Source: an uncultured Acidobacteriia bacterium
GTDB lineage: Bacteria; Acidobacteriota; Terriglobia; Bryobacterales; Bryobacteraceae
DNA: 64,000 nt
Direction: 5' to 3'
NCBI GenBank assembly: GCA_903851195.1
Contig: CAINNJ010000057.1
Coordinates: 1-64,000 of the forward strand
A program made the position numbers and the translations under genes. Of this stretch, positions 17,739-62,531 are shown one piece after another (the first letter of the stretch is position 1; each line of letters opens with the position of its first letter). The notes under the pieces were generated by a model, which ran no database searches, was not told where the DNA came from, and worked only from the letters and a program-made list of their open reading frames with translations.

Positions 17739-18965
17739 TTACGGGTTGAGCCGGGAGACCTGATCGATAACGTATTTGCCCTCCACCGGTTTCTCTTTCG
17801 ACCAGTCGTGATAGATGTGGCAAGTGGAGCAACTGGCGCCGGCCGAGGCGCTGCCCGCCGCGTGGCACTGGCGGCAGACGCCGATGCCGGGCAGCAGGAC
17901 GTCCGCCGCAACCGTGCTGGTGGCGGCTTTCGCGTGGCAGGAGGCGCAGGTCAGTTCTTTGTGCGCGGAGTGATCGAAGGATCCCTTCGTAAACCAGCGG
18001 GCCGGTATGGCGGTGGGTGTGACGGCGGCTGTAGCGAAGCCTTGCGGGGCGGTGAACGTGTGGCAGCGGGTGCAGGTCTCTTCGAGGAGTTTCTTTTCCG
18101 CCGCGGCGACTTTGAAATCGACCCAGGCTTTGGCGGAGCCAGGCGCGCCGTCCTTACCCAGATCGCCGGGATGGGCGGCGATGTACTGCGTGAACTGAGC
18201 CTGGACGAACGGATGGACCACCTCGGGCTTGTCGTGCGGAGCGAGTTCGGTCAGCTTGTCGTCGATGGTGAGCGCGTGGCAGGGAAGACAGACCCCGGCA
18301 TAGGTGGGAATGGTGATGAGCGCGTGGGAGGATACGCGGCCGCCGCCTTTCGAGAGGTGTTGCGAGGCGGGCTGAGCGGTCTCGGCAGGGGCATGGCAGT
18401 CCGCGCATTTCTGGCTGAGTTCGCCGACGTGCTTCTGGTGATTGAAACGAAGGCCGGTCGCATCTTTGCTCGAGGCCTTCTTCGCAAATTCCGGGTGGTT
18501 CGCGAAGCTGTCGATTTTCGCGGCTACCGCGGGGACGCCGGTTTTCGTATGGAGATTCGCGTGGCACTGCAGACAGCCCGCGTCGATGCCGGCACTCAGG
18601 CGGACGTCGCCGCGGTGTTCGACATGGCAGGAGACGCAGGCCGGATTGAACGTTGCGGAGGCCTGGTGGACCGGGCCATCGTGACAGGCGGCGCACTGGC
18701 GGTCGTCGACCTTCTTGCCGATGCCGGCGCTGTCGCCGTGGCAGACGGCGCACTTCTTGCCGAGAAAAGCGTGAGCGGGCGTCAGCGCGCCCGAGGTGTA
18801 CGGCGTCTGGTTGCGGGCAACCGCGTAGATCCCGAGCCAGAGAAGGGCCACGAGAACCCCGGCGACGGTGAGGATCCGCCGCCACAGGGGGATGGGATAG
18901 AGCCGTTTCAGGTAGGTCCGATCCACCCTCTGGCCCAGATTTTTCGTCGTTCGGATGCGTGCCAT
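17739..18965 (-). CDS. Membrane-anchored 10-haem c-type cytochrome
   Basis: A protein of 408 residues with one N-terminal transmembrane helix (ILTVAGVLVALLWLGIYAVA, residues 31-50) and no clear cleavage site, then a periplasmic part. It has ten CxxCH haem-binding motifs (CAVCH, CAACH, CVSCH, CLQCH, CADCH, CLPCH, CTRCH, CASCH, CRQCH, CSTCH). The pattern resembles NapC/NrfB-like and cytochrome c3-type chains that wire electrons from the inner membrane into the periplasm. It is the last gene of a four-gene minus-strand operon that starts with the NuoE-NuoF fusion, 16 bp after the b-type membrane protein. Likely role: to take electrons from that protein and pass them to the cytochromes encoded by the divergent operon (inference). 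Confidence 0.92.
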   Translation of the reverse strand: MARIRTTKNLGQRVDRTYLKRLYPIPLWRRILTVAGVLVALLWLGIYAVARNQTPYTSGALTPAHAFLGKKCAVCHGDSAGIGKKVDDRQCAACHDGPVHQASATFNPACVSCHVEHRGDVRLSAGIDAGCLQCHANLHTKTGVPAVAAKIDSFANHPEFAKKASSKDATGLRFNHQKHVGELSQKCADCHAPAETAQPASQHLSKGGGRVSSHALITIPTYAGVCLPCHALTIDDKLTELAPHDKPEVVHPFVQAQFTQYIAAHPGDLGKDGAPGSAKAWVDFKVAAAEKKLLEETCTRCHTFTAPQGFATAAVTPTAIPARWFTKGSFDHSAHKELTCASCHAKAATSTVAADVLLPGIGVCRQCHAAGSASAGASCSTCHIYHDWSKEKPVEGKYVIDQVSRLNP

Positions 18966-18981
18966 GGTTCCGGAGTTGCCT

Positions 18982-19884
18982 TTAGTAGTGGATCGCGACG
19001 AAGGCGTGAATACCGCCCAGCACGAGCAGGGTGACGGAAAGAGGAACGTGCACGAGCAGCCAGCCGTGCAGCAGCAGATACAGCTTGCGCTGGATGATCA
19101 GCTGGCGTTCCTCTTCGAAGATGCTTTCGAGGTCGGAGAGGGCTTCGTGGACGGAAGGAGGCGACTGGCGGCGCAGAGCGTCGAACCACGCGCTCGCTTT
19201 CGCGCGACTGGAAAGGGGGGAAGAGCGGTTGCCTTCGGGATCGCGGAGGAAAGGCACCATGCCGGAGCGGTAGACGTGCAGCAGGTTGGCGCGCTGGACT
19301 TCGGTCAGGTCCGACGGGGAATCTTCCGCCACCGCGACGGCTGCGGGCGTGGAGTGGCTCGCGACGGCGGGGAGATTTGCGGGAACGGCGCAAAGGGAAT
19401 CGACGATGGCGCCGGCCTCCTCGAAGAGCATTTCGCGGACGTGCGGGATCTGCTCATAGATGGTTTCGAGATGGACGACCTGCGTCATGCGTTTGGGAAT
19501 GAAGTGCTGCAGAAGAGCGCCGGTGATGCCGCTGAGGACGACAACGGTCAGGAGGATGGCCAGAACCAGGGTCAGGGGACCCCGGGCACGGAAACCGGCG
19601 TGCAGCAGGAGGATGGGCAGGCTGAGGGCGCCGAGCCAGAGATGGCCGCGCATCCAGACCTGAGCGCGGCCGATGCGCCAGAGGGGCACACGCTTGCGCG
19701 CGCCCAGCAGACCGGCGAAGAGCATCATGCCGTAGCCGAGCACTCCGTAACAGAGGCCGGGCCAGGTGTTCCCCGCGGGTCCGCCGGGGTAGAAGAGCTG
19801 GTAAGGGATGTAGGCCAGAAGGGCAACGAGCAGAATAGAAACCGTCGCGACGGCCCAGGGGCGGTGGGACTGATCGATTCGCAT
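18982..19884 (-). CDS. Polytopic membrane protein, probable b-type haem subunit
   Basis: A protein of 300 residues with about five transmembrane helices: residues 11-30, 44-60, 80-96, 103-125 and 270-300. Histidines are well placed for haem coordination inside or at the ends of helices (GHLWLGAL, LLLHAGF, LLLHGWLLVHVPLS, GGIHAFVAIHY). A soluble helical loop of about 130 residues is inserted between helices four and five. This suits a cytochrome b561 / ferric-reductase-like subunit moving electrons across the membrane between the polyferredoxin (cytoplasm) and the 10-haem cytochrome (periplasm), whose genes flank it at 3 and 16 bp. I cannot assign a named family, so the haem assignment is inferred from the His pattern. 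Confidence 0.72.
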   Translation of the reverse strand: MRIDQSHRPWAVATVSILLVALLAYIPYQLFYPGGPAGNTWPGLCYGVLGYGMMLFAGLLGARKRVPLWRIGRAQVWMRGHLWLGALSLPILLLHAGFRARGPLTLVLAILLTVVVLSGITGALLQHFIPKRMTQVVHLETIYEQIPHVREMLFEEAGAIVDSLCAVPANLPAVASHSTPAAVAVAEDSPSDLTEVQRANLLHVYRSGMVPFLRDPEGNRSSPLSSRAKASAWFDALRRQSPPSVHEALSDLESIFEEERQLIIQRKLYLLLHGWLLVHVPLSVTLLVLGGIHAFVAIHY

Positions 19885-19887
19885 GGC

Positions 19888-22053
19888 TTAGCGCCGGCCT
19901 CCGTGAGGAACGTCCGGAGCGGCGAACGGACCGGAGTCGATCGAGGGACTGATCAGGTCCCGGAAGAAGTCGTTGGGATCGACGCGTTTGGCCGCGTCGT
20001 GCGGGCAGGCGTAGACACAACTGGGCTCGGGAAGATTCTGACAGAGATCGCAGGACGTGGCTTTGCGTTTGGCGAGTGCGGCTTTGGGCGCGCCGGTTTC
20101 CGGGACCGCGTGCATGGTGATGTTCCCGAAGGGGCAGTTCCGGGCGCAGAGACCGCAGCCGACGCACCAATCTTCAATCACGGTTTCGAGGGAGTTGCGG
20201 CGGCGGATGGCGCCGACCGGGCAGCCAATCATGCAGAGCGGGTCGCGGCAGTGGCGGCAGGAGGTGGGCACCAGGTATTTATCGAAGCGCAGACCTTCGC
20301 GGACGAGGCGGGTGACGCCTTCGTGGGCGTCGGAACAGGCGCGGACGCACTGGTCGCAGCGGGTACACTTCTCCAGATCGATGACGAGAAGGCTGTTGGC
20401 TTCCATCAGGCCCTGGCCGAGGAATTTCTCGAGCGACATGGCGGAGACGGCGGCCGAGTGGCGCTGGTTGTGGAGTTCGCGCTCGGTGGCCACCTTCTTC
20501 AGATTGAACGCGATATCGGGGAAGCCGGCGAGCATTTCCTGAAACGCTTCGGCGTCGATGCGAACGACTTCGACGTTATCGAGCGCGGTGACGGTAAACG
20601 CATAGGTACCGCGCAGAATGAGGCCGATCTCGCCGAAATGGCCGCCTTTGCCCTGGTAGGCGAGCACGAGGTCGCCTCCGGCGTGCTCTTCCACCATCTT
20701 GACGAAACCGATGCGCACGAGGAAGAAGTAGCGCGCGGTTTCGCCCTGCCGGCAGAGAACCTCGCCGCGGGAGTAACGGACGAGTTCGACGCGCCGCGAG
20801 AGATTCTCGATGAATTCCGGGCTGAGGGAGGAGAAGACGGAGACGGTCCGGAGGTGGTCTTCGAGGGCGCGCTTGCGGTAGTTCTTCTCGATTTCGGCGC
20901 GCAGGGTTTTGTTCCGCTGGATGACGTCGAGGACGTTGCGGAGCATTTCGAGCATGACGCAATCGGTCTTCGCGCGGACGGTGGCCGAGCGCGGGTAGAG
21001 GTTCATGCAGGTCATCTCGCCGAAGATGTCGCCCTGACCCAGGCGGGCGACGGGGTTGTCGAGCGAGAGATCGACGACGGAGTCGATGGGGATATTACCG
21101 CCGTTTTGTGCCGGGGAGCCAGGCTTCTTTTTGGGCGAGAAGACGTGCGCGAACATTTCAAAGAGGCTGGGAGCCTCTTTGGCCGTCTCCTTTTTCGAAG
21201 ACATGGAGGAGAGGAAGACTTCGACCTCGCCTTCGAGGATGTAGAAGGCGGTGGAACCGTAGTCGCCTTCGCGGCAGATGACTTCACCGGCTTTGAAGTG
21301 ACGGCGGATGACGGCGTTCTTGTTGAGATCGAGGAAAGTTCCGGAGACCTTCTGAAAGAAGGGCAGGGTTTTGAGCTCTTCGACGCCGACGGGATCGCCG
21401 CCGGGAAGCACGGTGCGGACCACGCTTTTGTTCGTGAGGGCGCCGGTGGGGCAGGAGACCATGCACTCGCCGCAACTGACGCAGGACGAGTTCCCCATGG
21501 GACGGTTCAGATCGAAGGCGATACCCGCGTTGTAGCCTTTGCCGCCGCGGCCGAGGACGTTGTTCTGGCGAATTTCGTCGCAGCCCCGGATGCAGCGATC
21601 GCAGAGAATACAGGCTTCGTGGTCGACGGAGATGACGAGAGAAGAGTCGTCCTGGCCGCGGGGCGAGACGCGTTTGCTGAAGCGGGGGGCGACGATGCCT
21701 TCGGCGGCGGCCTGGGTTTCCAGTTCGCAATCGCCGCTGACGCGCTGGCGGGCGCAGGGGCTCGGGTGATCCGAAAGGAGCAGTTCGAGGATCATGCGGC
21801 GGTGTTTCTTCACCTTGTCGCTGGCGGTGAAGACCTTCATCCCGTTTTCGGCGGGGCGAACGCAGGAAGCCTGCAGGACTTTGTCGCCGCAATCCACCGT
21901 GCAGACGCGGCAGACGCCGATGGGCCGTTCGTTCTGGGCGTGACACAGGACGGGGATGGCGATGCCGTGCAGGCGGGCGGCATCGAAAACGGAGGTCCCT
22001 TCCTCGACTGTTACCGGTTTGTCGTCGATGGTGAGTTCAAGAGTCTTCATCAA
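19888..22053 (-). CDS. Polyferredoxin with two embedded cyclic-nucleotide-binding domains (NuoG-like N-terminus, DmsB/HycB-like C-terminus)
   Basis: A protein of 721 residues. Residues 1-80 are a NuoG/HydA-type [2Fe-2S] ferredoxin (Cys37, Cys48, Cys51, Cys64). Next comes the His-Cys cluster region (HPSPCARQ to GDCELE) with His96, Cys100 and Cys109, where the Cys normally three residues after the first is Gln103. Two [4Fe-4S] sites follow (Cys148/151/154/158 and Cys191/194/197/201). Residues 240-385 are a cNMP-binding fold with a good phosphate cassette (FGEMTCM, PRSATV) and a 50-residue insert; residues 405-520 are a second one lacking the cassette Arg. The C-terminus has four [4Fe-4S] sites of the DmsB/HycB type (from Cys563 to Cys683). 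It should carry electrons from the NuoEF-like diaphorase, whose stop it overlaps by 4 bp, towards the membrane subunit, possibly under cyclic-nucleotide control. No signal peptide, so cytoplasmic. Confidence 0.92.
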   Translation of the reverse strand: MMKTLELTIDDKPVTVEEGTSVFDAARLHGIAIPVLCHAQNERPIGVCRVCTVDCGDKVLQASCVRPAENGMKVFTASDKVKKHRRMILELLLSDHPSPCARQRVSGDCELETQAAAEGIVAPRFSKRVSPRGQDDSSLVISVDHEACILCDRCIRGCDEIRQNNVLGRGGKGYNAGIAFDLNRPMGNSSCVSCGECMVSCPTGALTNKSVVRTVLPGGDPVGVEELKTLPFFQKVSGTFLDLNKNAVIRRHFKAGEVICREGDYGSTAFYILEGEVEVFLSSMSSKKETAKEAPSLFEMFAHVFSPKKKPGSPAQNGGNIPIDSVVDLSLDNPVARLGQGDIFGEMTCMNLYPRSATVRAKTDCVMLEMLRNVLDVIQRNKTLRAEIEKNYRKRALEDHLRTVSVFSSLSPEFIENLSRRVELVRYSRGEVLCRQGETARYFFLVRIGFVKMVEEHAGGDLVLAYQGKGGHFGEIGLILRGTYAFTVTALDNVEVVRIDAEAFQEMLAGFPDIAFNLKKVATERELHNQRHSAAVSAMSLEKFLGQGLMEANSLLVIDLEKCTRCDQCVRACSDAHEGVTRLVREGLRFDKYLVPTSCRHCRDPLCMIGCPVGAIRRRNSLETVIEDWCVGCGLCARNCPFGNITMHAVPETGAPKAALAKRKATSCDLCQNLPEPSCVYACPHDAAKRVDPNDFFRDLISPSIDSGPFAAPDVPHGGRR

Positions 22054-23762
22054 ACGGCTTGTCCTTGTGCCCGGGCAGAGGCGATGGGGCAGACGCCGGC
22101 CGGGCAGTTTTTATGAAGAACGTGGGCGTCGATCTCTTCGCGAAAGTGTTTGAAGGCGGTGGTGATGGGGTAAGGCACGAACTGGCCGAGGCCGCAGATG
22201 GAAGTTTGCTCCATGGTTTCGGCGAGGTCGGCGACGAGTTGCAGGTCGGAGGGCGCGCCTTTGCCGCGGGTCCAGCCGACGAGGATATCCACAAGTTTTT
22301 GCGAACCGACACGGCAGGGCACACATTTTCCGCAGGACTCATTGCGGAAAAAGATGATGGCGTTGAGGGTCATGTCGAGGATGCAGCGGGAGTCGTCGAC
22401 GACGACGATAGCGCCGGAGCCGAGCATGGTGCCGGCGGCGCGCATGGACTTGAAATCGAGATGGGTATCCCGGAACTTGTCGAACGGGATAAAACCGGAG
22501 GCGGCGCCGGAGGGAGAGAAGGCTTTCACGGTGCGGCCGGGGGCGGGGCCGCCCGCGAGGCCGAGGATGGCTTCGGAGACGGGAATGCCCATGGGGATCT
22601 CGAAGGCGCCGGGGCGCTGGACATCGCCGGAGACGCCGATAAACTTGAGGCCGGCGGCGCCGTCGCGGCCCTGGGCTTTAAACCAGGCCACGCCGTTGGC
22701 GAGAATCTGCGGGACGTTGGCGAATGTTTCGACATTGTTCAGAGCCGTCGGTTTACCCCACAAACCTACAGTGGCGGAATTCGGCGGTTTGTTACGGGGC
22801 TCGGCGCGTTTGCCTTCAATGGCTTCGAGCTGCGCGCTGCCTTCGCCGCAGATGTAGCCGCCGGGACTGACGAAGATGTCGAGGTGAAACGAGAGATCGG
22901 TGCCGAGGATACTCTCGCCGAGGAGACCGTCGCGGCGGCACTGGTCGATTTCGGCGCGGAGGATGGCTTCCTGCTCCTTGTACTCATGCCGAATGTAGAG
23001 GAAGCCCTTTTTGGCGCCGCAGACGAGAGCACCGACGATCATGCCCTCAATGACCAGGTGGGGCAGGTGGGTCATGATGAAGCGATCCTTGATGGTGCCG
23101 GGCTCGCTTTCGTCGGCGTTACAGACCAGATACTTTTCGTCGCCGCGCGCCTTTTTGACCACATCCCACTTGATGCTGGTGGGGAAGCCCGCACCGCCCA
23201 TGCCGCCGAGGCCGGCGTCCTTGAGGGTGGTGATGACACCGTCGAAATCCCGGGAGGCGACGAGGGCGCGGAGGGCGGAATACCGTTCTGGTACGCTTTC
23301 GCCGTTCCGGACCCGATAGGGGTCGGCCAGAAGTGTGACGGGTTGGTGTTCGAAGGCGGGAACGGGCAGGTCAATGTTTGCGAGTTTGGCCTGGATGTGA
23401 GTCTCGGCCAGTTCCGTTGAGACGTTCCGGAATACCACCTCATTCAGCGTGAGGGCAGGGGCGGAGTCGCACTGTCCGAGGCAGGAGCGGCGATGGATCT
23501 CGACGGCGCGTTTGCCCATTTTGGCGAACTTCTGTTCCAGATCGGAACACAAGGTGTCCGCGCCGCGGAGGTGGCATGCCATATCGGTGCAGACTTCGAC
23601 GACGGCCTGAGCAGGCGGCGTGAGGCGGAACTCGGGATAGAACTCAGCGACTCCGTTGATCTTATATAGAGGTATCTCCTGTTTTTTCGATAGTTCCAGC
23701 ATCTGATCCGGGGGAAGATACCCGAACCGATGCTGGATTTCCCTCATATCGTCGAACAGCAT
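22050..23762 (-). CDS. NuoE-NuoF fusion: NADH-binding diaphorase subunit
   Basis: A protein of 570 residues from the ATG at 23762; the frame opens at 23813 but the NuoE fold begins with RFGYLPPDQM here. Residues 1-130 are a short NuoE thioredoxin-like domain with [2Fe-2S] ligands Cys58, Cys63, Cys94 and Cys98. The rest is NuoF: GGMGGAGFPTSIKW (FMN and NADH site), ADESEPGTIKDR, PGGYICGEGSA, and the [4Fe-4S] motif ESCGKCVPCR followed by SICGLGQ. Such fusions serve as the NAD(P)H-oxidising module of hydrogenases, formate dehydrogenases and complex I-like enzymes. None of their catalytic partners is encoded nearby; its partners here are the polyferredoxin (4-bp overlap), a b-type protein and cytochromes. 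Confidence 0.93.
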   Translation of the reverse strand: MLFDDMREIQHRFGYLPPDQMLELSKKQEIPLYKINGVAEFYPEFRLTPPAQAVVEVCTDMACHLRGADTLCSDLEQKFAKMGKRAVEIHRRSCLGQCDSAPALTLNEVVFRNVSTELAETHIQAKLANIDLPVPAFEHQPVTLLADPYRVRNGESVPERYSALRALVASRDFDGVITTLKDAGLGGMGGAGFPTSIKWDVVKKARGDEKYLVCNADESEPGTIKDRFIMTHLPHLVIEGMIVGALVCGAKKGFLYIRHEYKEQEAILRAEIDQCRRDGLLGESILGTDLSFHLDIFVSPGGYICGEGSAQLEAIEGKRAEPRNKPPNSATVGLWGKPTALNNVETFANVPQILANGVAWFKAQGRDGAAGLKFIGVSGDVQRPGAFEIPMGIPVSEAILGLAGGPAPGRTVKAFSPSGAASGFIPFDKFRDTHLDFKSMRAAGTMLGSGAIVVVDDSRCILDMTLNAIIFFRNESCGKCVPCRVGSQKLVDILVGWTRGKGAPSDLQLVADLAETMEQTSICGLGQFVPYPITTAFKHFREEIDAHVLHKNCPAGVCPIASARAQGQAV

Positions 23763-23898
23763 ACCCACCGCCTTTAACGTGCAACTGATGTCAGGGTACC
23801 AGGATAAGGCCACGGAAGGCCAGAGAAAAACGAGTGTGGAGAAACGTTTTTTCTCTTTACATCACTACTAACTATCGGCTCATACTGTTAGAAGTCGG

Positions 23899-26046
23899 AT
23901 GAATCAAACGATGCAAAAACGTTACGCAGTTGTTATCGCGCTGGCCATCACCGCCGCGGGACTGGCGGCACAGACCAGGGTCCGGAACAATCCGGAAGTC
24001 CCTTTGAAGGCACAGGAAATTCAACCTCCCACCAACTGTCTGCCGTGTCATCAGCGGCAGTTCGACGAGCTGCGCAGTTCGGTGAAATCGGGCTACCGGA
24101 ACGTGAGTCCGCTGTTCAACGGGCTGGAGACTTCGGCCAATCTGATCACGGGCGGACTGCTGCGACCGGTGTACGGCGACAGCACGAAGAAGCTGGCGGA
24201 CGGCTCGCCGTTCAACACGAACATGTTCACGACTCCGGTTCTGAAGGACGGTTTGCAGTTGCGCGCGGGTTTCTGTTTCACCTGTCATGCGGCGAATGTC
24301 GAGCGTCTGGGGGAGGATCCCTCGAAGCGCGAAATTCCCGAAATTCCGACCGGCGCGGCGTTCCGCCCGGACCTGTTCCGGCCTTTGCGCGACTATCACT
24401 TTGTCGACGGGGTAACCGGGAAGCAGGTTTTACCGGAGACGATCGGCGGACCGCCGCCGGCCGGATCGAAGCCGTCTCTTTCGACGGCGGGGATCAGCTG
24501 CGACTTCTGCCACAATGTGGGCGGGCCCGATCTGAACCGCAGCTTTAAGCGGGACAGTTTCGCCAATACGAGCCTGGTGATTAACAGTTCGATCGAGAAA
24601 GTCGGGCCCTTTCCGTTCCCGGTGAACGCGAAGAATCAGTTCCATGTTTCGAGCAACGACCAGGGCAAAATCGCCTTTATCCGGAGTTCGGCCTTCTGCA
24701 ATGCGTGTCACGATGTCCGGCTGCCGGGCGGCGGCCCGGGCGATCTGCAGAACTACGAGTACAACGTCAATTCGCCGTCCTTGCCCTTCTTCCGGCTGGA
24801 GAATCTGAGCACGGAGTGGCAGACGGGGGCGTACAACAGCACGAACAATCCGTTCGGAAAAGTAGTGCGGTGCCAGGACTGCCACATGTCGACGTTTCCT
24901 TTCGGGGGCGACTCCACTTATCAGGTGGGCAATCTGAAGATCACGAGCGCGACGCCGGGTGTTTTTGCCCAGAACTATGCGGCGGTGCCCGGTATTTCGA
25001 CCGACGAGGGGTACCAGTTGCCGAAGAGGGCGGTAGTGGATCACCACTTTACGGGCACGGATGTGCCGGTTCTGAGCGCGGCGGACCTGAAGGCGAGACT
25101 TGGCGCGGATTATCCGGATCCGTACGAGCCGGGCGTGGACGAGTACGGGATACCGAAGGCGCTGGCGACGCGGCGGCAGAAGCTGCTGGAGAACGCGGCG
25201 CGCATCGATGTGGCGAAGACGGATCCGCAGGCGGCTTTGGGCAAGGAGATGGTGGTGCGTCTGGACGCGGTGAGTCTGACGGGGCACCGGTATCCGGCAG
25301 GGTTCTCGCAGGAACGGACGGCCTACGTGCAGCTGCAGGTGACGGACGATAACGGTTTTATGCTGTACCAGTCCGGCTATCTGGTGGATAAGCCGCATCC
25401 GGACACCGGGGAGATGAAGCCCGACGGGAACCTGGACGATGAAGATAACGAGCATATCCATGCGGTTGTGGATGGCGGTCACGCGGTGCCGGTGGGCAGT
25501 TACGTGGCGGGGGCGACGAACAACGGGTCGAAGAACCTGGTGTTCGAGCTGGGGCCGGACAACGGGCCGGACGACCGGGTGTACTCGGGGATCGATCAGG
25601 GTTTGGTGCTGTTCCGGAACGAACTGACGGTGATCTACCTGCCGGGCACGCAGATCGGGCGCAACGGGGCGGACGGCAAGCCGCTGGTGGCGCAGACGCC
25701 TCATTACGAAGAGACGTTCAACGCGGCGACGGCGAACACGGTGGACAATTACCGGTCGCTGCAGCCGCTGGTACCGCGGCAGTTCCGCTATCGGTTCACA
25801 CTGCCGACGCAGGCGGAACTGGACGAGATGGGCGTGACGCTGAAAGCGCCGCTGCATGTGCGGGCGGTGGTTCACGATGAGCACTTCCCGCCGGTGTTCG
25901 TGCGCTATCTGGCGAAGACGACGGGGCCGAACGGGCCGGGCGGGGATAAGCAACTGGTCACGGAGGCGACGATCGATCAACTGCTGAAGACGAATAGAAA
26001 CCTGGCTGCTTCGGAAACGACGGTCAGTCTGGCAGGTGCGAAATGA
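23899..26046 (+). CDS. Exported 5-haem cytochrome c family protein
   Basis: A protein of 715 residues with a signal peptide ending near GLAAQT. Five CxxCH motifs are spread over the first half (CLPCH, CFTCH, CDFCH, CNACH, CQDCH), with spacing resembling catalytic multihaem proteins of the cytochrome c554 / octahaem group rather than a dense electron wire. The C-terminal 300 residues have no haem motif and look like beta-sandwich (HRYPAGFSQERTAYVQLQV). It is the first gene of the plus-strand operon, divergent from the NuoEF operon with a 136-bp shared upstream region. It could be a terminal reductase or a periplasmic electron carrier; the substrate cannot be told from sequence. Confidence 0.88.
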   Translation: MNQTMQKRYAVVIALAITAAGLAAQTRVRNNPEVPLKAQEIQPPTNCLPCHQRQFDELRSSVKSGYRNVSPLFNGLETSANLITGGLLRPVYGDSTKKLADGSPFNTNMFTTPVLKDGLQLRAGFCFTCHAANVERLGEDPSKREIPEIPTGAAFRPDLFRPLRDYHFVDGVTGKQVLPETIGGPPPAGSKPSLSTAGISCDFCHNVGGPDLNRSFKRDSFANTSLVINSSIEKVGPFPFPVNAKNQFHVSSNDQGKIAFIRSSAFCNACHDVRLPGGGPGDLQNYEYNVNSPSLPFFRLENLSTEWQTGAYNSTNNPFGKVVRCQDCHMSTFPFGGDSTYQVGNLKITSATPGVFAQNYAAVPGISTDEGYQLPKRAVVDHHFTGTDVPVLSAADLKARLGADYPDPYEPGVDEYGIPKALATRRQKLLENAARIDVAKTDPQAALGKEMVVRLDAVSLTGHRYPAGFSQERTAYVQLQVTDDNGFMLYQSGYLVDKPHPDTGEMKPDGNLDDEDNEHIHAVVDGGHAVPVGSYVAGATNNGSKNLVFELGPDNGPDDRVYSGIDQGLVLFRNELTVIYLPGTQIGRNGADGKPLVAQTPHYEETFNAATANTVDNYRSLQPLVPRQFRYRFTLPTQAELDEMGVTLKAPLHVRAVVHDEHFPPVFVRYLAKTTGPNGPGGDKQLVTEATIDQLLKTNRNLAASETTVSLAGAK

Positions 26047-26873
26047 AGATGCAGAACATGGTCAGGATTGCGTTGTTCATTCTGGGGGGGGCCGTTTCGG
26101 CGGCCGCCCAGGGTGTGACCGGAGCCGTGACGACCGGCGACGGACCCTACGTTCCGGGCGTGACGTATCAGGCGGACAATCCGAATTATCTGAACCGGAA
26201 TCCGTTCAATTTCGAAGGCCGGGTGGACTGGAATCTGCTGAAGATCACGACGCCTTCGAGCATGTGGGAGTTCGTGCAGAGAGGCATTCACAATCAGGAC
26301 GATCTGGAAGACATTCCGGCGGCGATCGCGGATTACCAGAAAGCTCTGTCGATGAACAGCCTGAGCAACGGCACCTGTCAGATTTTCCGGACGGCGCCGC
26401 CGGTTTCGCCGAATGTCAATCCGGCGCCGTGCATGTTCACGCCGCGGCTGCGGCTGGCGCACCTGATTATCGAAGACACGCCGGACGTGGCGATCGGCCT
26501 TTATGAGGAAGTGCTGCAGATCGACGCGTTGCGGCTGGGCGTGAATGCGCTGATCGCCGAGGCCTGGGAGGTCAAGGCGAAGAACGCGGCGGACGCGGCC
26601 TCCAAAGAGGCGTTTCTCGAAAAGGCGATCGAGGCCTATGAGAAAGAACTACAGCTTTCGCCCGTTACCGCCGATTACACAGCATTGACGGGCGACAAAG
26701 CGAACAACGCGCACGTTCACTGGGCTCTGTCGGAGATTTACGCCGAACAGGGTAATCAGGCCAAACAGGCGGAGGAACTGCAGGCCTATCTGGACGCGAC
26801 GCAGTGGCACAGCGACACTTATGCGTGGCGAATCCAGCTGGCGAAAGTGCGGCTCGCGCGGTTAGGTCATTAA
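26043..26873 (+). CDS. Exported TPR-like protein of the cytochrome operon
   Basis: A protein of 276 residues with a signal peptide (MVRIALFILGGAVSAAAQ region). It starts inside the stop of the 5-haem cytochrome (4-bp ATGA overlap), so translation is coupled. The mature part is helical with TPR-like pairs (AIADYQKALSMN, AIEAYEKELQLSP, AEQGNQAKQAEELQAYLDA) and two cysteines at TCQIF and APCMF that could form a disulphide. TPR proteins in cytochrome loci often act in cytochrome or complex assembly, which is the likely role here, but no specific family is recognised. Confidence 0.8.
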   Translation: MKMQNMVRIALFILGGAVSAAAQGVTGAVTTGDGPYVPGVTYQADNPNYLNRNPFNFEGRVDWNLLKITTPSSMWEFVQRGIHNQDDLEDIPAAIADYQKALSMNSLSNGTCQIFRTAPPVSPNVNPAPCMFTPRLRLAHLIIEDTPDVAIGLYEEVLQIDALRLGVNALIAEAWEVKAKNAADAASKEAFLEKAIEAYEKELQLSPVTADYTALTGDKANNAHVHWALSEIYAEQGNQAKQAEELQAYLDATQWHSDTYAWRIQLAKVRLARLGH

Positions 26874-26968
26874 AGCGTTCCATTTTGCTCAGAACAGTTG
26901 GAAGAAGCGCCGCAGTGTTGTACAAATAGGTCTGAAGATTCAGTATGAGTAAAAAGGTCTGACACGGA

Positions 26969-28579
26969 ATGTCCCGACTATCTGTTTTTTGTCCCAGCGG
27001 TTTCTGTTTGACTCTTCTTTTGGCCGCCGGCGGCATGCAGGCGCAAACGGCCAAACCGGCGGAGCGTCCGCAGGACATCGGAGCAGCGTGGGACCAACTG
27101 ATCGCGGGGCCGATCGCCGCGGCGCCGGCCGACCCCGCCCTGGTTCCGGTTCAAAGCACGACAAAGACGAGCGATGTCGGGGATTTCCTGAATCACTTCT
27201 TCTTCGAGACCCGGACGAATTACGAGCGGTTCCAGACGAATTTCACGGGCAATCCGACGTATTCCGGCGTGATCAATGCGCCGGACACCGGGACGTTCAA
27301 TCCGGCGGGCATACCGTCGACAGCGGCGTTTCAGCCGGGGTCGAACCGGGTGGAATCCTTTATCAGCACGGGCACGCGGGGTTATGGCTCGGACCGCGTG
27401 AACACGCATTTCTCTCTGCGATACCGGCAGGACATCAACAAGGTTCGGATCGGATCGCCGGCCGAAAACGTGGTGGAGACGTCGTACGGGAGCCGGCTCT
27501 GGGAGTTTCTGGATGCCACGGTCGAGATCAACAGTAAGCCCACCGACGGCGCGCTGGCGGGCAGTTCGCTGCAGTTCGGGCGGCTGAACGTTTACGGGGC
27601 GGAACTGGCGTCCTTCGACGGCGTATCGGTTTCTTTCAATAAGCCCGGCTACGATCTGACCCTGTTCGGGGGGCGGCGGTTTTCTTTCTTTTCCGATCCG
27701 CGGCAGCGCGGCATCGGGGGAGCGAATCTGAATATTAAAATCAATCCGACGACTTCGGTGGAACTCGAGACGCTCTGGTATATCAAGGGGTCGAACCGGG
27801 TGATCGTGCGAAAGCGGCTGAACGACCGCTGGGTAGTGCGCTCTTCCCTGCGCGCTTACGGCGGCGCTCCGGTGGATTTCGACGCTTTCGGGATCTACAG
27901 TTCCCGAAGCGGGCGGGACACGCTGCGGTTCGGATTTTTTCAGAAACTGACGGATAAAGACTACACGTTCGATTACACGTCCGACGTGAAAGATCTGGCG
28001 GCGAAGAATCCGCTGTACCGGCTGTATCTGGGACCCATTTCGCAGTATTCGCAGCTCAACGCGGAAGCCCACCGGCAGATTCTGGGCAATCTGCGGGCCG
28101 GCGCGGCGTTCGTGGTGCGACGGCTGAACAACCGGATCAACGAAGGGCCGTACGACACCTCATTCGAGGATTACCGGTTCAACGGCCAGTACTTCCCGTT
28201 CCGGAAGATCGAGACGTTTTTCGAGTATCACCAGCGGAATTCCGACCGGCTGAGTCCGCTCAGCGTGACGACGCTGGACAATCTGAGCTCGACGGGCGAG
28301 ACGAGCGTGAAGGATCTGACGGGCGAAATCCGCCGGGCGTTCGGCGAGGGCAAATACAGTCTGAGCGGGGGCGTCTATTACCGGCGCATCAGCATGCAGG
28401 ACGCGTTTTTCTATCTCAACAATCTGCACCGGAGCGGTCTGCTGGGCAGTGCGTGGGTGCGGCTGGACAGCCGAACCCGCGCCTACTTCGACTACAGTCT
28501 GGACAACGACTTTTACCTGTTCCGGCCGGATCTGAAGAATTCTCAGGTTTTCCGGCTGGGCGTGAACTGGAAGTACTGA
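26969..28579 (+). CDS. Predicted outer-membrane beta-barrel (porin-like) protein
   Basis: A protein of 536 residues with a signal peptide (LLLAAGGMQAQ). From about residue 65 it is a regular alternation of short amphipathic strands with aromatic girdles (TNYERFQTNF, HFSLRYRQDI, YDLTLFGGRRFSFF, FFEYHQRN, YSLSGGVYYRRI, AYFDYSLDNDFYLF). It ends in the aromatic C-terminal signature NWKY typical of outer-membrane barrels. Strand density suggests 20 or more strands, similar in kind to the MtrB/PioB barrels that sheathe multihaem cytochromes, though the N-terminal CXXC of MtrB is not seen. It sits between a 5-haem and a 15-haem cytochrome gene, the arrangement of a porin-cytochrome conduit. A 95-bp gap upstream may hold its own promoter. 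Confidence 0.82.
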   Translation: MSRLSVFCPSGFCLTLLLAAGGMQAQTAKPAERPQDIGAAWDQLIAGPIAAAPADPALVPVQSTTKTSDVGDFLNHFFFETRTNYERFQTNFTGNPTYSGVINAPDTGTFNPAGIPSTAAFQPGSNRVESFISTGTRGYGSDRVNTHFSLRYRQDINKVRIGSPAENVVETSYGSRLWEFLDATVEINSKPTDGALAGSSLQFGRLNVYGAELASFDGVSVSFNKPGYDLTLFGGRRFSFFSDPRQRGIGGANLNIKINPTTSVELETLWYIKGSNRVIVRKRLNDRWVVRSSLRAYGGAPVDFDAFGIYSSRSGRDTLRFGFFQKLTDKDYTFDYTSDVKDLAAKNPLYRLYLGPISQYSQLNAEAHRQILGNLRAGAAFVVRRLNNRINEGPYDTSFEDYRFNGQYFPFRKIETFFEYHQRNSDRLSPLSVTTLDNLSSTGETSVKDLTGEIRRAFGEGKYSLSGGVYYRRISMQDAFFYLNNLHRSGLLGSAWVRLDSRTRAYFDYSLDNDFYLFRPDLKNSQVFRLGVNWKY

Positions 28580-28590
28580 GCCAGGCGACC

Positions 28591-29991
28591 ATGAAAAATC
28601 CTTTGTCACGTTCCACGATCCTTCTGTCTCTCGCCGTTACGGCCTGTTCGCTGTTGGCGCAAAAGCCCGCGGCGACTCCCTCGGGCGCCGCGAAACCCGA
28701 GTTTTTCGTGCATGCTTTCCATAAAGACAAACTGGGCGGCACGCTCGATTGCGGTCTCTGCCATGTCGCGGTGAAGGAAGGCTCGGTCACCCTGAAACGG
28801 CCGGGGCACGACCAGTGCATGACCTGCCACAGCGACGATTTCACCAAAGAGCTGAAGCCGGTGGTCTGCGAACAGTGCCACAAGACGTTTCCGCCGACCA
28901 GTTCGGAAGATCTGCTGCCCTTTCCGAGATATCAGGGGACGCGGGCGGTGCTGTTCGAGTTCTCGCACGCCAAACACGTGGATCAGAAGGCGCGCGTGGA
29001 TGCGAAAACCGGGTTCCGGGCCGACTGCACCTTTTGCCATAAGTTCGATGCCAAGGGTGTTTTCGCGTCGTTCCCGGGCCATGAGCAGTGCGCGACGTGC
29101 CATGCCAAACCCGGCATGAAACCGCAGTTGACGGCCGCCCTGACGGCCGAGGATTGCAGGGGATGCCATACGCCGGAGGAAATTGAGAACCCCGGCTTCA
29201 CCGAGGCCCGGCGTTTTGCCAATGGCCGGCAGACGGTGAACGGCAAATACATCAACATCTCCTTCTCGCACCTGCCGCATTTCAAGGCGAAAGAGCAGTT
29301 CGGAGTGAACTGCACGACGTGCCATTACGAGATTCCGCACAGCACGAGCGTGACGACTCTGTCCCTGCCGAAGATGCTCGATTGCGTGCAGTGTCACGAT
29401 TCGGCGAGGGCCGTGAACGCGAAGTTCCGGATGGGGAACTGCCAGACGTGCCACTCCGATACGGTGGCGGCGACGGCCGTGCCGAACAGCCACACGCGCA
29501 ACGTGAAGCCGGATTTCCATACGGAAGCGTTCCGCCGGGAGCACGCTTCGGAGGCGGCGGCGCCGAATGCAAAATGCGCCGTTTGCCATCTGAACGTGAC
29601 GCCGTCGGTCACGGCCAAAGTGCAGTGCGACGGTTGCCATCAGGTGATGCGTCCGGTGAACCATACGTCCCGCTGGAAAGACGATCTGCACGGAAAATAC
29701 GCCGCGCTCGACAGAACGGAATGCGCGACCTGCCACACGGCCGCCTACTGCAGCGACTGTCACAATGAACTGCCGAGGAGCCATCAGCCGCTGCCGCTGT
29801 TCAAGGCCGGCGGACACGCACTGCCGGCGCAACTCGACGTGCGGTCATGCCTGACGTGCCATACGTTCCAGAACACGTGTTCGGAGTGCCATGTGAACAA
29901 GATCGCGCAGAATCAGGGGCCGCAACCGGTGATCGTCGCGAAGGCGGCGCCGGCGAGGTCCGGGGTGGATCTGGTGGCGCTGTTCCGGTAG
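28591..29991 (+). CDS. 15-haem c-type cytochrome, possible lipoprotein
   Basis: A protein of 466 residues with fifteen CxxCH motifs, about one per 31 residues, a density typical of electron-wire cytochromes. The start is the ATG at 28591, 11 bp after the barrel gene; the frame is open upstream inside that gene but without a signal sequence. The N-terminus is an export signal ending in LAVTACSLLAQ. VTAC fits a lipobox with Cys19, so the protein may be lipid-anchored and displayed at the outer membrane, though signal peptidase I cleavage after LLA is also possible. The last haems are clustered (CATCH, CSDCH, CLTCH, CSECH). In context it is a candidate terminal partner of the barrel for moving electrons across the outer membrane. 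Confidence 0.92.
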   Translation: MKNPLSRSTILLSLAVTACSLLAQKPAATPSGAAKPEFFVHAFHKDKLGGTLDCGLCHVAVKEGSVTLKRPGHDQCMTCHSDDFTKELKPVVCEQCHKTFPPTSSEDLLPFPRYQGTRAVLFEFSHAKHVDQKARVDAKTGFRADCTFCHKFDAKGVFASFPGHEQCATCHAKPGMKPQLTAALTAEDCRGCHTPEEIENPGFTEARRFANGRQTVNGKYINISFSHLPHFKAKEQFGVNCTTCHYEIPHSTSVTTLSLPKMLDCVQCHDSARAVNAKFRMGNCQTCHSDTVAATAVPNSHTRNVKPDFHTEAFRREHASEAAAPNAKCAVCHLNVTPSVTAKVQCDGCHQVMRPVNHTSRWKDDLHGKYAALDRTECATCHTAAYCSDCHNELPRSHQPLPLFKAGGHALPAQLDVRSCLTCHTFQNTCSECHVNKIAQNQGPQPVIVAKAAPARSGVDLVALFR

Positions 29992-30060: not shown

Positions 30061-30381
30061 CTATTTGAGGGAGTGAATGTAGGCGATCAGATTGTCGAGA
30101 TCCGCGCCCGCCACGCCGGCGATCGGTTTCATCTTCCCGGCGCCCTTTGCGACCGCGCCCTTGATGGCATCGTCGCTGGCGTCGGCGAGCGGTTTAATGG
30201 TCACGCCCATTGCCTTGGCAATGGCGGGATTCCCTTCCCCTTTGGGGCCGTGGCAGCTCTTGCACTTGGCATAAACGGCTGCGCCGGCGGCCGCATCGGC
30301 AGCAAAGGCTCCGGCGGGCAGAGAGATGGCCGCGCCGCAGATGAGGCCAGCTGAAATGAGATTACGAAGTTTGAATTTCAT
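30061..30381 (-). CDS. Small monohaem class I cytochrome c
   Basis: A protein of 106 residues with a signal peptide (cleavage near GAFAAD), one CKSCH haem site (Cys40, Cys43, His44) and a Met ligand in GAGKMKPI. The ATG at 30381 has AAGGA upstream; the longer frame to 30471 is not needed. Such proteins are soluble periplasmic electron shuttles. It converges on the multihaem operon across a shared terminator, so it may carry electrons between the cytochrome b-c complex at 34-36 kb and other acceptors (inference). Confidence 0.9.
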   Translation of the reverse strand: MKFKLRNLISAGLICGAAISLPAGAFAADAAAGAAVYAKCKSCHGPKGEGNPAIAKAMGVTIKPLADASDDAIKGAVAKGAGKMKPIAGVAGADLDNLIAYIHSLK

Positions 30382-30519
30382 GGATCTGTTCCTTGTCCGA
30401 GCTGACAGACAGCCCCGGCGATAATTGATTCTCGCTACCTCATCATGGGATTGACAGACTATCCGTGTCAAGACAGAGTGTGCAACCGGGTGATTAAAAA
30501 TGGTTCAGCCAGGGAATAT

Positions 30520-60841: not shown

Positions 60842-61108
60842 TCAGGCCACGACTTCGTCGACGTAGCACCAGAGCCAGCCTTCGCCGGGCTCGATGGACT
60901 GCACGACCGGATGCTCGGTGGCGTGGAAATGTTTGGTGGCGTGCTTGTTCTTCGAGGAATCGCAGCAGCCCACATGGCCGCAGGTGCGGCAGAGGCGCAG
61001 GTGAACCCAGCTGTCGCCGGTTTTCAGGCATTCTTCACAGCCGTTGGAGTGCGGGGTCACCGGAGGGATTTTCCCCTCGCGGACTTGTTTCAGATGAGTA
61101 CACTTCAT
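60842..61108 (-). CDS. UBP-type zinc-finger protein
   Basis: A protein of 88 residues with the zf-UBP pattern: CTHL at the start, GCEECLKTGDSWVHLRLCRTCGHVGCCDSSKNKHATKHFHATEHPV, ending WLWCYVDEV. Cys and His residues at positions 3, 5, 24, 27, 40, 43, 48 and the later His cluster would bind two or three zinc ions. In eukaryotes this fold binds the ubiquitin tail; bacterial single-domain versions are common but of unknown target. It overlaps the histidine kinase gene by 74 bp and may be translated from the same message. Confidence 0.92.
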   Translation of the reverse strand: MKCTHLKQVREGKIPPVTPHSNGCEECLKTGDSWVHLRLCRTCGHVGCCDSSKNKHATKHFHATEHPVVQSIEPGEGWLWCYVDEVVA

Positions 61109-62531
61109 GGTCGCTCCTTTTCTGGACGAGTTGCTGTTTGACAGGCAGGCGGACTTCGAACCGGGTGTCGCCGGGCACCGATTCCACGTCGATGGTTCCC
61201 CGGTGCCGGTTCACGATAATGCGGCGGGCAGTTTCGAGGCCAAGTCCCGTTCCTTCGCCCGCCGGTTTGCTGGTAACGAACGGTTCGAAGAGATGCTCGC
61301 GGATCTCCGGCGGGATACCGCCGCCTGTATCCCCAATGGTTACAATCACCTGGTCGCCGGCGAGGGCGGTGCGGACAGTCAGAATTCCCGGGGAGGAAGC
61401 TTTGCCGTCCGGGCCCGTCATGGCGTCGAGGGCGTTGCTGATGAGGTTGGTCCACACCTGATTCAGTTCGCCGGGAAAGGCGGGGATTTTCGGAATGGAC
61501 CGGTCGTAGTCGCGGTGCACTTCGATGCCGCCTTTGGTGCGGTGGGCGAAGATTTTGAGCGTGCTGTCGAGGCCGATGTGCAGGTCCACTTCCTGGAACT
61601 TTGCCTGGTCCATATAGCTGTACTGCTTCATGGCGAGGACGAGGTCGGAGATGCGGGAGGAGGCGGATTCGAGTTCTTTCGCGAGCTGGTTGGTGGTCAG
61701 GTCGGCTTCGAGCCAGGTGAGCGCGGCGGCGAGGGCGTCTGCGGTGAGTTTGCCCGACAGGCCGGTCAGACACTGTTTCGTCATGCCGGCGCCGACGAGG
61801 CCCGGCGCCATCTCCCAGGCGTCATTGATGCCGTTCTGTTCGAGCCATTCGGTCATGGCTTCTTCGAGGTCGCTGCGGTCGAGCGGGGAGAGGACTTCGG
61901 GGTCGGCGGCGTGCTCGCGAACGTACTGCTGCATCTGCTCGAGGGCGACACGCTGGGAGGAATCGATGCGGCAATCGTACTGCATACCCAGCGAAGACAC
62001 GCGGGAGACGGCCGCGCGCAAGGCTTTCACGGTACGCACCATAGCGGCGGCGGGGTTGTTCAGTTCGTGCGCGAGGCTGGCCGCGATCTTGCCGAGGGCC
62101 GCCATCTTTTCCTGCTGGACCATGGTGACGCCCACTTCGCGGGTGCGGGCCACGAAGGCTTTGAGAACGGGGGCGGCGAGGTCCGGGCACTCGGCGAGCA
62201 TGCGGCGGAACTGGCCGGGGGAGAAGCGGACGACGCGGGCAGGTCCGTCGGCGTAACCGGTCGCGATGGCGGGAGAGCCGGTCAGCAGGGAGATCTCACC
62301 GGTGAACTGACCCTCTTCGTGCACGACGAGGAGGACATCCTCCTGGCCAATGCGTTTGGTAACGCGGATGCGGCCGCTCAGCACGACGTAGAAGGGGTAT
62401 TCGAGGTCGCCCTGGGTGAAGATGACCTCTCCGTCCCTGAGCTCGACCTCATCGCCTTCGGCGCACATCTCGCGGATCTTCTCCACGCTGAGCCGCGGGA
62501 ACATGGAGGCCTGGTTGGGGTCGTGCAGCAT
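61035..62531 (-). CDS. Cytoplasmic sensor histidine kinase with N-terminal cNMP-binding-type domain
   Basis: A protein of 498 residues. Residues 10-125 form a CRP-like sensor (GEVIFTQGDLEYPFYVVLSGRI, FTGEISLLTGSPAIATGYA). The usual phosphate-cassette Arg is not obvious, so the ligand may not be a cyclic nucleotide. HisKA follows with His155 (SLAHELNNPAA), a helical linker, and the HATPase domain (NLISNALDAM, DTGGGIPPE, GTGLGLETARRI). The C-terminal 24 residues read into the UBP gene. It begins 6 bp after the TrxR-like gene and is probably its signalling partner. Confidence 0.93.
   Translation of the reverse strand: MLHDPNQASMFPRLSVEKIREMCAEGDEVELRDGEVIFTQGDLEYPFYVVLSGRIRVTKRIGQEDVLLVVHEEGQFTGEISLLTGSPAIATGYADGPARVVRFSPGQFRRMLAECPDLAAPVLKAFVARTREVGVTMVQQEKMAALGKIAASLAHELNNPAAAMVRTVKALRAAVSRVSSLGMQYDCRIDSSQRVALEQMQQYVREHAADPEVLSPLDRSDLEEAMTEWLEQNGINDAWEMAPGLVGAGMTKQCLTGLSGKLTADALAAALTWLEADLTTNQLAKELESASSRISDLVLAMKQYSYMDQAKFQEVDLHIGLDSTLKIFAHRTKGGIEVHRDYDRSIPKIPAFPGELNQVWTNLISNALDAMTGPDGKASSPGILTVRTALAGDQVIVTIGDTGGGIPPEIREHLFEPFVTSKPAGEGTGLGLETARRIIVNRHRGTIDVESVPGDTRFEVRLPVKQQLVQKRSDHEVYSSETSPRGENPSGDPALQRL

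Follow-up and report, generated by a model that had tools for sequence, protein, structure and literature searches.

Positions 17,739 to 29,991 of a 64,000-nucleotide stretch of DNA from an uncultured Acidobacteriia bacterium of the Bryobacteraceae (contig CAINNJ010000057.1 of assembly GCA_903851195.1; the whole stretch is hereafter the window) carry two divergent operons which, on balance, probably encode a dedicated line for the export of electrons from NAD(P)H to the cell exterior that bypasses quinone. The inner operon encodes a NuoE–NuoF fusion (NuoEF), an iron–sulfur protein with cyclic nucleotide (cNMP)-binding domains (cNMPfd), a membrane protein (bmem) and a decahaem cytochrome (cyt10). 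The second operon, here called the conduit, encodes a pentahaem cytochrome (cyt5), a tetratricopeptide repeat (TPR) protein, a predicted outer-membrane beta-barrel and a 15-haem cytochrome (cyt15). A preliminary description made from the letters alone had proposed a route from NAD(P)H to the outside, or the reverse. This is still the best reading, and it is strengthened by the strict pairing of NuoEF with the HoxU-like part of cNMPfd, by invariant histidines in bmem and by the multihaem neighbours of most relatives; the direction of flow and the acceptor are inferred. All eight genes of that description were recovered at the positions in Table 1, and its 30 haem c sites were counted again as CXXCH motifs in cyt10 (10), cyt5 (5) and cyt15 (15), the other five proteins having none.

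For the distribution of the inner operon, cNMPfd was used as the query. Matches (E ≤ 1e-60) were present in 25 of 396 sampled genomes of the window's phylum; 23 of these matched the cNMP/Fe-S core and 2 the HoxU part only, and a near full-length match was seen in 5 of the 25, the window's own genome included. A scan of named genomes returned at least 80 loci, titled as Acidobacteriota and its subgroups, Planctomycetota, Rokubacteria and Wallbacteria, while a single locus was titled Actinobacteria and another Rhodanobacteraceae. The only named cultured strain noticed among the matches listed was Granulicella aggregans M8UP14. In the tree, the locus titled Rhodanobacteraceae (L104) groups among Acidobacteriaceae and that titled Actinobacteria (L096) beside Rokubacteria, as would follow from misbinned contigs or transfer. 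Once L050 and L053, in which no cNMPfd was labelled, and 10 duplicates had been dropped, 99 loci remained.

The composition of these loci was followed by tblastn. Among HoxU-bearing loci, 65 extend 1.7 kb or more upstream, and all 65 have NuoEF directly upstream on the same strand (the gap exceeding 200 bases in two); none of the 19 loci that gave no HoxU match by tblastn has it. Some tree rows marked as short are truncated by contig ends (L114, L132); the 19 HoxU-less loci all have at least 1.7 kb upstream. Sequence reached at least 2.5 kb downstream in 89 loci; 84 of these have bmem and 85 have cyt10. Both were missing from L044, L106 and L120, and bmem only from L040 and L096; L043 lacks only the cyt10 match, yet a decahaem gene is present at that place.

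The NuoE–NuoF fusion of the preliminary description was borne out by the Pfam series 2Fe-2S_thioredx, Complex1_51K, SLBB and NADH_4Fe-4S. The N1a and N3 cysteines are kept in 58 of 58 sequences, residues of the FMN site in 50 to 58 of the 58 at most positions, and the FMN-site glycines are nearly all conserved. NuoF position 325 is Glu in 53 of 58, Gln in 3 and Gly in 2 (the window and L057); L148 has Gly as well. Glu at this position is presumed by us to disfavour NADPH in complex I, a literature search having found no support for it, and one HydB chain carries Ser at the matching position; a preference of the window's NuoF for NADPH is accordingly not claimed.

Pfam domains of cNMPfd run in the order Fer2_4, Fer4 domains, two cNMP_binding regions (as three Pfam stretches) and more Fer4 domains, in agreement with the earlier description of a polyferredoxin with two cNMP folds. 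The first ~216 residues align with the N-termini of [FeFe] hydrogenase A6, HoxU and NuoG (NCBIfam). Matches to HydA and formate dehydrogenase chains are confined to the first 238 residues, with no catalytic subunit among the proteins scanned. Judged by its domains, the "polyferredoxin" is a diaphorase subunit joined through cNMP domains to a DmsB-type subunit. In the HoxU part, the N1b ligands and both [4Fe-4S] ligand sets are kept in 64 of 64 sequences. The N5-type His-Cys3 site (residues 96–109) retains its His in 62 of 64 and its first and last Cys in 61 of 64 each. At the position of the second Cys stands Gln in 50, Glu in 6, His in 4 and Asp, Asn, Gly or Ser in 1 each; the site may have an unusual ligand or a lost cluster. 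The 16 cluster cysteines of the DmsB-like domain are invariant across 21 aligned sequences, these being 21 of the 25 matches after two with an internal stop and two matching the HoxU part only were dropped. Both cNMP domains keep the Glu and Arg of the phosphate-binding cassette: E346 in 64/64 and R355 in 63/64 for the first, E475 in 64/64 and R484 in 61/64 for the second, where the window and L148 have Tyr instead of R484. A cyclic nucleotide may bind there.

The b-type character previously assigned to bmem is supported by its histidines and by a confident helical model, though not by any family match. All 81 sequences compared, those of the window and of the distant branch among them, have H81, H95, H279 and H293; one of the alignments comprised 45 of 57 listed relatives together with the window's protein. 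The AlphaFold model (predicted local distance difference test score (pLDDT) 90.3; predicted template-modelling score (pTM) 0.80) places helices at 5–31, 41–65, 74–96, 103–136 and 243–299, with further helices within 143–240. The HX13H motifs lie on helices 3 and 5. With one pair of histidines on helix 3, 14 residues apart, and another pair on the last helix, bmem could hold two b haems stacked one above the other; the HX13H spacing resembles that of bc1 and NOX, and the arginine-rich loop 62–76 suggests that this side faces the cytoplasm. From sequence and model, bmem is likely a dihaem cytochrome b wire without known relative: no match was found in Pfam or NCBIfam and no credible sequence relative in the PDB, Foldseek gave no convincing fold relative (best E 0.065; b561 at E 0.49), and none of these searches connected bmem with bc1, NarI, b561 or ferric reductase. 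NapC/NirT (PF03264) was likewise unmatched in bmem and cyt10 by Pfam. Relatives of cyt10 have 10 CXXCH in 81 of 86, 9 in four and 6 in one.

Where a locus had 5 kb or more on each side, a further gene with at least four CXXCH, besides cyt10, was present in 59 of 64, as against 2 of 20 control stretches (~20 kb each, from 9 of the same genomes, their positions chosen arbitrarily); in none of the loci does the count depend solely on a decahaem gene without a label, which could be cyt10 itself. Three sets were distinguished. Set A is the conduit of the window (cyt5–TPR–barrel–cyt15), shared with L148 and L057/L149. Set B has a tetrahaem C554-type protein and/or a 9–10-haem LVIVD-repeat protein of ~1240 residues, one or both of which occur in 54 of the 64 loci, often with a protein of 700–800 residues; the one C-terminus of the latter that was inspected looks barrel-like. 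Set C (L043, L046, L047 and L052) has a pentahaem protein, a ~540-residue protein and an octahaem protein, plus a flavoprotein with Pyr_redox_2, FHA and Fer2 domains. The nine-haem LVIVD-repeat proteins of ~1240 residues (L032, 4851–8567, and relatives) are common beside the inner unit, and LVIVD multihaem proteins were also seen near the distant relatives L041 and L042; no paper joining LVIVD and multiheme cytochrome was found in the open-licence literature (searched without figures or supplements).

The FHA flavoprotein, of the kind found in L046, is present in 8 loci and in none of them together with NuoEF, so the cytoplasmic input is exchangeable. Both ends of the inner unit vary, namely the input flavoprotein and the outer cytochrome set.

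The conduit itself was compared with its relatives. Relatives of cyt5 were found in L148, L149 and L159, and at ~24% identity in L043, L046, L047, L050, L052 and L053. L148 and L159 keep the gene order of the window, with the TPR gene between cyt5 and the barrel, and cyt15 has 15 CXXCH in L148, L149 and L159 too. The proteins cyt5, TPR and cyt15 are presumed to be exported; the hydrophobic segment of cyt15 falls below the threshold used for the other proteins, and its signal peptide was judged by eye. P0008 is predicted to be an outer-membrane beta-barrel from its N-terminal hydrophobic segment, its aromatic C-terminus (SQVFRLGVNWKY) and a weak, home-made strand scan, in which it scored z = 2.3, two other presumed barrels 0.9 and 1.5, and non-barrels at most 0.8. 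Pfam and PDB searches gave no homology to MtrB, PioB or OmbB porins. The barrels of sets A and C were tried as homologues and are not detectably related (hhalign probability 0.3%). PDB searches with the barrels and the pentahaem protein returned nothing useful, and one weak match (E 2.2e-4) was obtained with the 15-haem protein, which also has weak NCBIfam matches to QrcA and HmcA.

Based on these features, the following route is proposed. NuoEF would oxidise NAD(P)H in the cytoplasm, presumably in a complex with cNMPfd, and electrons would pass through the HoxU-like clusters, past the two cyclic-nucleotide-type domains, to the four [4Fe-4S] clusters that cNMPfd also carries. From there they would reach the cytoplasmic-side haem b of bmem (H81/H279), then the periplasmic-side haem (H95/H293) and the anchored cyt10. 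Transfer from cyt10 to cyt15 would follow; cyt15 with the barrel would take the electrons through the outer membrane, and cyt5 would deliver them to an acceptor outside. Candidates for this acceptor are Fe(III), Mn(IV), humics or a shuttle. Quinone would have no part in the line, by which the cell could rid itself of NAD(P)H formed in sugar breakdown when oxygen is scarce. From NADH to a higher-potential outside acceptor, such flow should be downhill in both redox and membrane potential. A wider proposal, which we put forward tentatively and think possible rather than probable, is that an as yet undescribed, quinone-independent transmembrane unit of cNMP polyferredoxin, a new dihaem cytochrome b family and a decahaem anchor serves as a socket in several phyla, into which different NAD(P)H flavoproteins plug on the inside and different outer-membrane cytochrome sets on the outside, and where a cyclic nucleotide in the electron path may switch export.

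The linkage of the two operons was then examined across the window's order. Among 150 genomes, cNMPfd (E ≤ 1e-100) was found in 11 and the barrel (E ≤ 1e-10) in 3; the three barrel genomes all fall in the window's genus, and each of them carries the two operons together on a single contig. The gene set is kept at 49–86% identity in two relatives and is rearranged in one (L149), where the TPR and pentahaem genes share the strand of NuoEF–cNMPfd–bmem–cyt10 and barrel–cyt15 is opposite. Co-conservation of the operons, offered earlier as a check on the proposal, gave a mixed result: 3 of 14 sampled genus members have both and the other 11 have neither, outside the window's clade the inner operon stands beside other cytochrome sets, and a distant genome (G210, locus L159) has the four-gene conduit alone. 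On gene content, inner operon and conduit are two separable modules. In a tree of 98 rows (quick method, with support from the Shimodaira–Hasegawa-like approximate likelihood ratio test only), the window groups with L148 and L056 (100), then L057 (98), then L058 (95), within a 13-row group (100) whose remaining nine rows carry type B (LVIVD and/or tetrahaem) genes. The LVIVD protein was not found in genomes G000, G446 and G524 at E 1e-20 (G524 being 83% complete). Since the window's clade is nested among type B carriers and itself lacks LVIVD, the conduit apparently replaced another cytochrome set while the inner unit stayed.

Several observations weigh against a single export line. The loci share ancestry, so that counts across them are not independent events. 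No NuoEF is seen in the 19 HoxU-less loci; another flavoprotein occurs in 8 of the 99 loci, and the remaining HoxU-less ones have no known input. The second cysteine of the N5-type site is present in none of the 64 sequences, and an additional multihaem gene is missing from 5 of the 64 loci (L044, L045, L106, L110 and L112). The barrel gave no confident AlphaFold model when run with one relative (pLDDT 26.7), no Pfam match up to E 0.01 and no PDB match up to E 1. Neither operon, nor the pentahaem protein, is present in 11 of 14 sampled genus members. The conduit without inner unit in G210 indicates that it can be fed by another route, bmem may react with quinone, and a NapC/NirT-type membrane protein with 5 haem motifs is encoded on another contig of the window's genome.

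The G210 conduit and the NapC/NirT-type protein also fit the strongest alternative, to which we give a modest chance, that the product of the inner operon is a dehydrogenase of NAD(P)H which reduces quinone or periplasmic acceptors via bmem and cyt10, and the conduit a separate, quinol-fed porin–cytochrome unit next door. DmsB-type Fe-S proteins are, as we take it, the usual feeders of quinone-reactive membrane subunits. A row of genes in G140 (L160, 261–4912) joins a distant barrel (28%), an NDH-2/cNMP fusion, a small cNMP protein and a NapC-type tetrahaem protein; it looks like a quinone-based analogue and counts for the same alternative. Against two separate units stand the occurrence of both operons or neither in the genus, the rearranged but complete set of L149, and the multihaem genes and cyt10 that accompany most inner units. 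The same chain might instead run inwards, with an extracellular donor such as Fe(II), humics or partner cells reducing NAD(P)+. Homologues of CymA and CbcL/MtrH/MtoC are described from organisms that reduce Fe(III) and from others that oxidise Fe(II), and routes of this kind can therefore work in either direction (PMC6295460); inward flow is nonetheless improbable here, as it would be uphill in redox and membrane potential except from very low-potential donors, unless bmem were proton-coupled.

Flavin-based bifurcation, by which the NuoF-type flavin would send one NAD(P)H electron to a low-potential carrier and one to the cytochrome line, was considered as well. Among solved structures, the NuoF part finds its best relatives in hydrogenase B subunits, several of which belong to bifurcating enzymes; they include HydB-type subunits (8a6t, 7q4v) and NiFe hydrogenase subunit B (7t2r). 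Each of the two cysteines of the C-terminal CPAxxC motif of these relatives is kept in 53 of 58 NuoEF sequences. The window's protein ends there, however, whereas HydB chains run ~40–60 residues past the match, and no ferredoxin partner was seen; bifurcation is improbable as well. Least probable of all is a chance neighbourhood of unrelated redox genes: the locus is missing from most of the genus, but its conservation in two relatives, once through a rearrangement, and the excess of multihaem genes over the control stretches argue against it.

Table 1. Features of the two operons, with positions counted from the first letter of the window.
Feature	Position	Strand	Basis
cyt10 (P0002), N-terminally membrane-anchored decahaem c-type cytochrome	17739..18965	-	10 CXXCH; hydrophobic segment 25–44; Cytochrome_C7 (Pfam)
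bmem (P0003), five-helix membrane protein, likely dihaem cytochrome b	18982..19884	-	Invariant His; helical model
cNMPfd (P0004), HoxU/NuoG-like (~1–216), two cNMP-binding (~220–530) and DmsB-like parts, the last with four [4Fe-4S] sites (~555–690)	19888..22053	-	
NuoE–NuoF fusion (P0005), NAD(P)H dehydrogenase flavoprotein module	22050..23813	-	Pfam, NCBIfam, solved relatives
Intergenic stretch separating the divergent operons	23814..23898	none	
cyt5 (P0006), pentahaem cytochrome, presumed exported, its C-terminal part long and free of haem sites	23899..26046	+	5 CXXCH; N-terminal hydrophobic segment
TPR protein (P0007), presumed exported	26043..26873	+	Weak TPR matches under cut-off (Pfam)
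Predicted outer-membrane beta-barrel (P0008)	26969..28579	+	N-terminal hydrophobic segment; C-terminus SQVFRLGVNWKY; strand scan
cyt15 (P0009), presumed exported 15-haem cytochrome	28591..29991	+	15 CXXCH; signal peptide by eye

The start of the 15-haem gene (28591) is a corrected one. For NuoEF, the probable start is at ~23762 rather than the GTG at 23813, as alignments to relatives open at residue 17–19. No promoter-like sites were found in the intergenic stretch, and promoter and terminator scans were at chance level. Just past the 15-haem gene, on the opposite strand, lies a small monohaem cytochrome c (30061–30471, -). Further along the window are a histidine kinase with an N-terminal cNMP domain (61035–62531, -) and, adjoining it, a thioredoxin-reductase-like protein (62537–64000, -) whose N-terminus weakly matches a response-regulator model.

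Elsewhere in the window's genome, a second NuoF with an adjoining NuoG-like gene (contig C33), presumably of complex I, and three haem-copper oxidase matches were found; together with the NapC/NirT-type match, these suggest an oxygen-respiring, perhaps facultative organism. Paludibaculum, which shares the order Bryobacterales with the nearest titled relatives, is described as coupling Fe(III) reduction to sugar fermentation (PMC8407742). If the proposed route is correct, soil bacteria could discharge the electrons released by sugar breakdown to minerals or humics with no need of quinone. It could then help explain how iron reduction is tied to fermentation in Bryobacterales, and would bring with it a new family of dihaem cytochromes b and, possibly, a second-messenger switch within an electron path.

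With HoxEFU, HydBC and NuoEFG, the window shares NuoE, NuoF and HoxU-like parts with N1a, N3, N1b and two [4Fe-4S] sites. It differs in the fusion of the HoxU part to cNMP and DmsB-like domains and in the N5-type site short of one cysteine. As the preliminary description had stated, no hydrogenase, formate dehydrogenase or complex I partner, and no complex I quinone-module or membrane subunit, was found by Pfam among the nine window proteins scanned. The Hmc/Qrc-type transmembrane redox complexes of sulfate reducers are likewise encoded by single operons that combine Fe-S subunits with membrane and multihaem c subunits. In comparison, the window has no NrfD-type subunit among the nine proteins scanned, its bmem matched no family searched, and it has an NAD(P)H dehydrogenase and cNMP domains in addition. 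The flavin-based extracellular electron transfer of Listeria, which is quinone-based, Gram-positive and without multihaem cytochromes, has its own Ndh2 and is alike in principle, in that an NADH dehydrogenase is reserved for extracellular electron transfer.

MtrCAB, OmbB-OmaB-OmcB and ExtABCD are known porin–cytochrome complexes. Like these, and like the clusters described from Verrucomicrobia (PMC5615132) and karst metagenome-assembled genomes (PMC13264449), the conduit is a multihaem cytochrome operon with a predicted barrel; it is set apart by its 15 + 5 haems, its TPR protein and a barrel without detectable homology to known porins. The first group of karst clusters, as the text of that source has it, numbers 11 clusters, in which a large decahaem cytochrome goes with a ~20-stranded porin; 7 of the 11 lie near a ferredoxin–NADP reductase gene, and the group may overlap the FHA-flavoprotein type; its cluster section, figures apart, names no NuoEF, cNMP polyferredoxin or b-type subunit. 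Acidobacteriota are among the cluster-bearing genomes there, and porin–cytochrome clusters in Acidobacteria have been published (PMC7399161, PMC13264449). The NuoEF–HoxU/cNMP/dihaem-b unit and the exchange of both its ends were not met in the open-licence literature, nor was a paper there joining cyclic nucleotide-binding, multiheme and ferredoxin. The closest counterparts in role, as inner-membrane entries to an extracellular route, are the three named families CymA, CbcL/MtrH/MtoC and ImcH (PMC6295460). All three, as described there, exchange electrons with the quinone pool, whereas entry in the window would be from NAD(P)H by way of Fe-S clusters and haem b.

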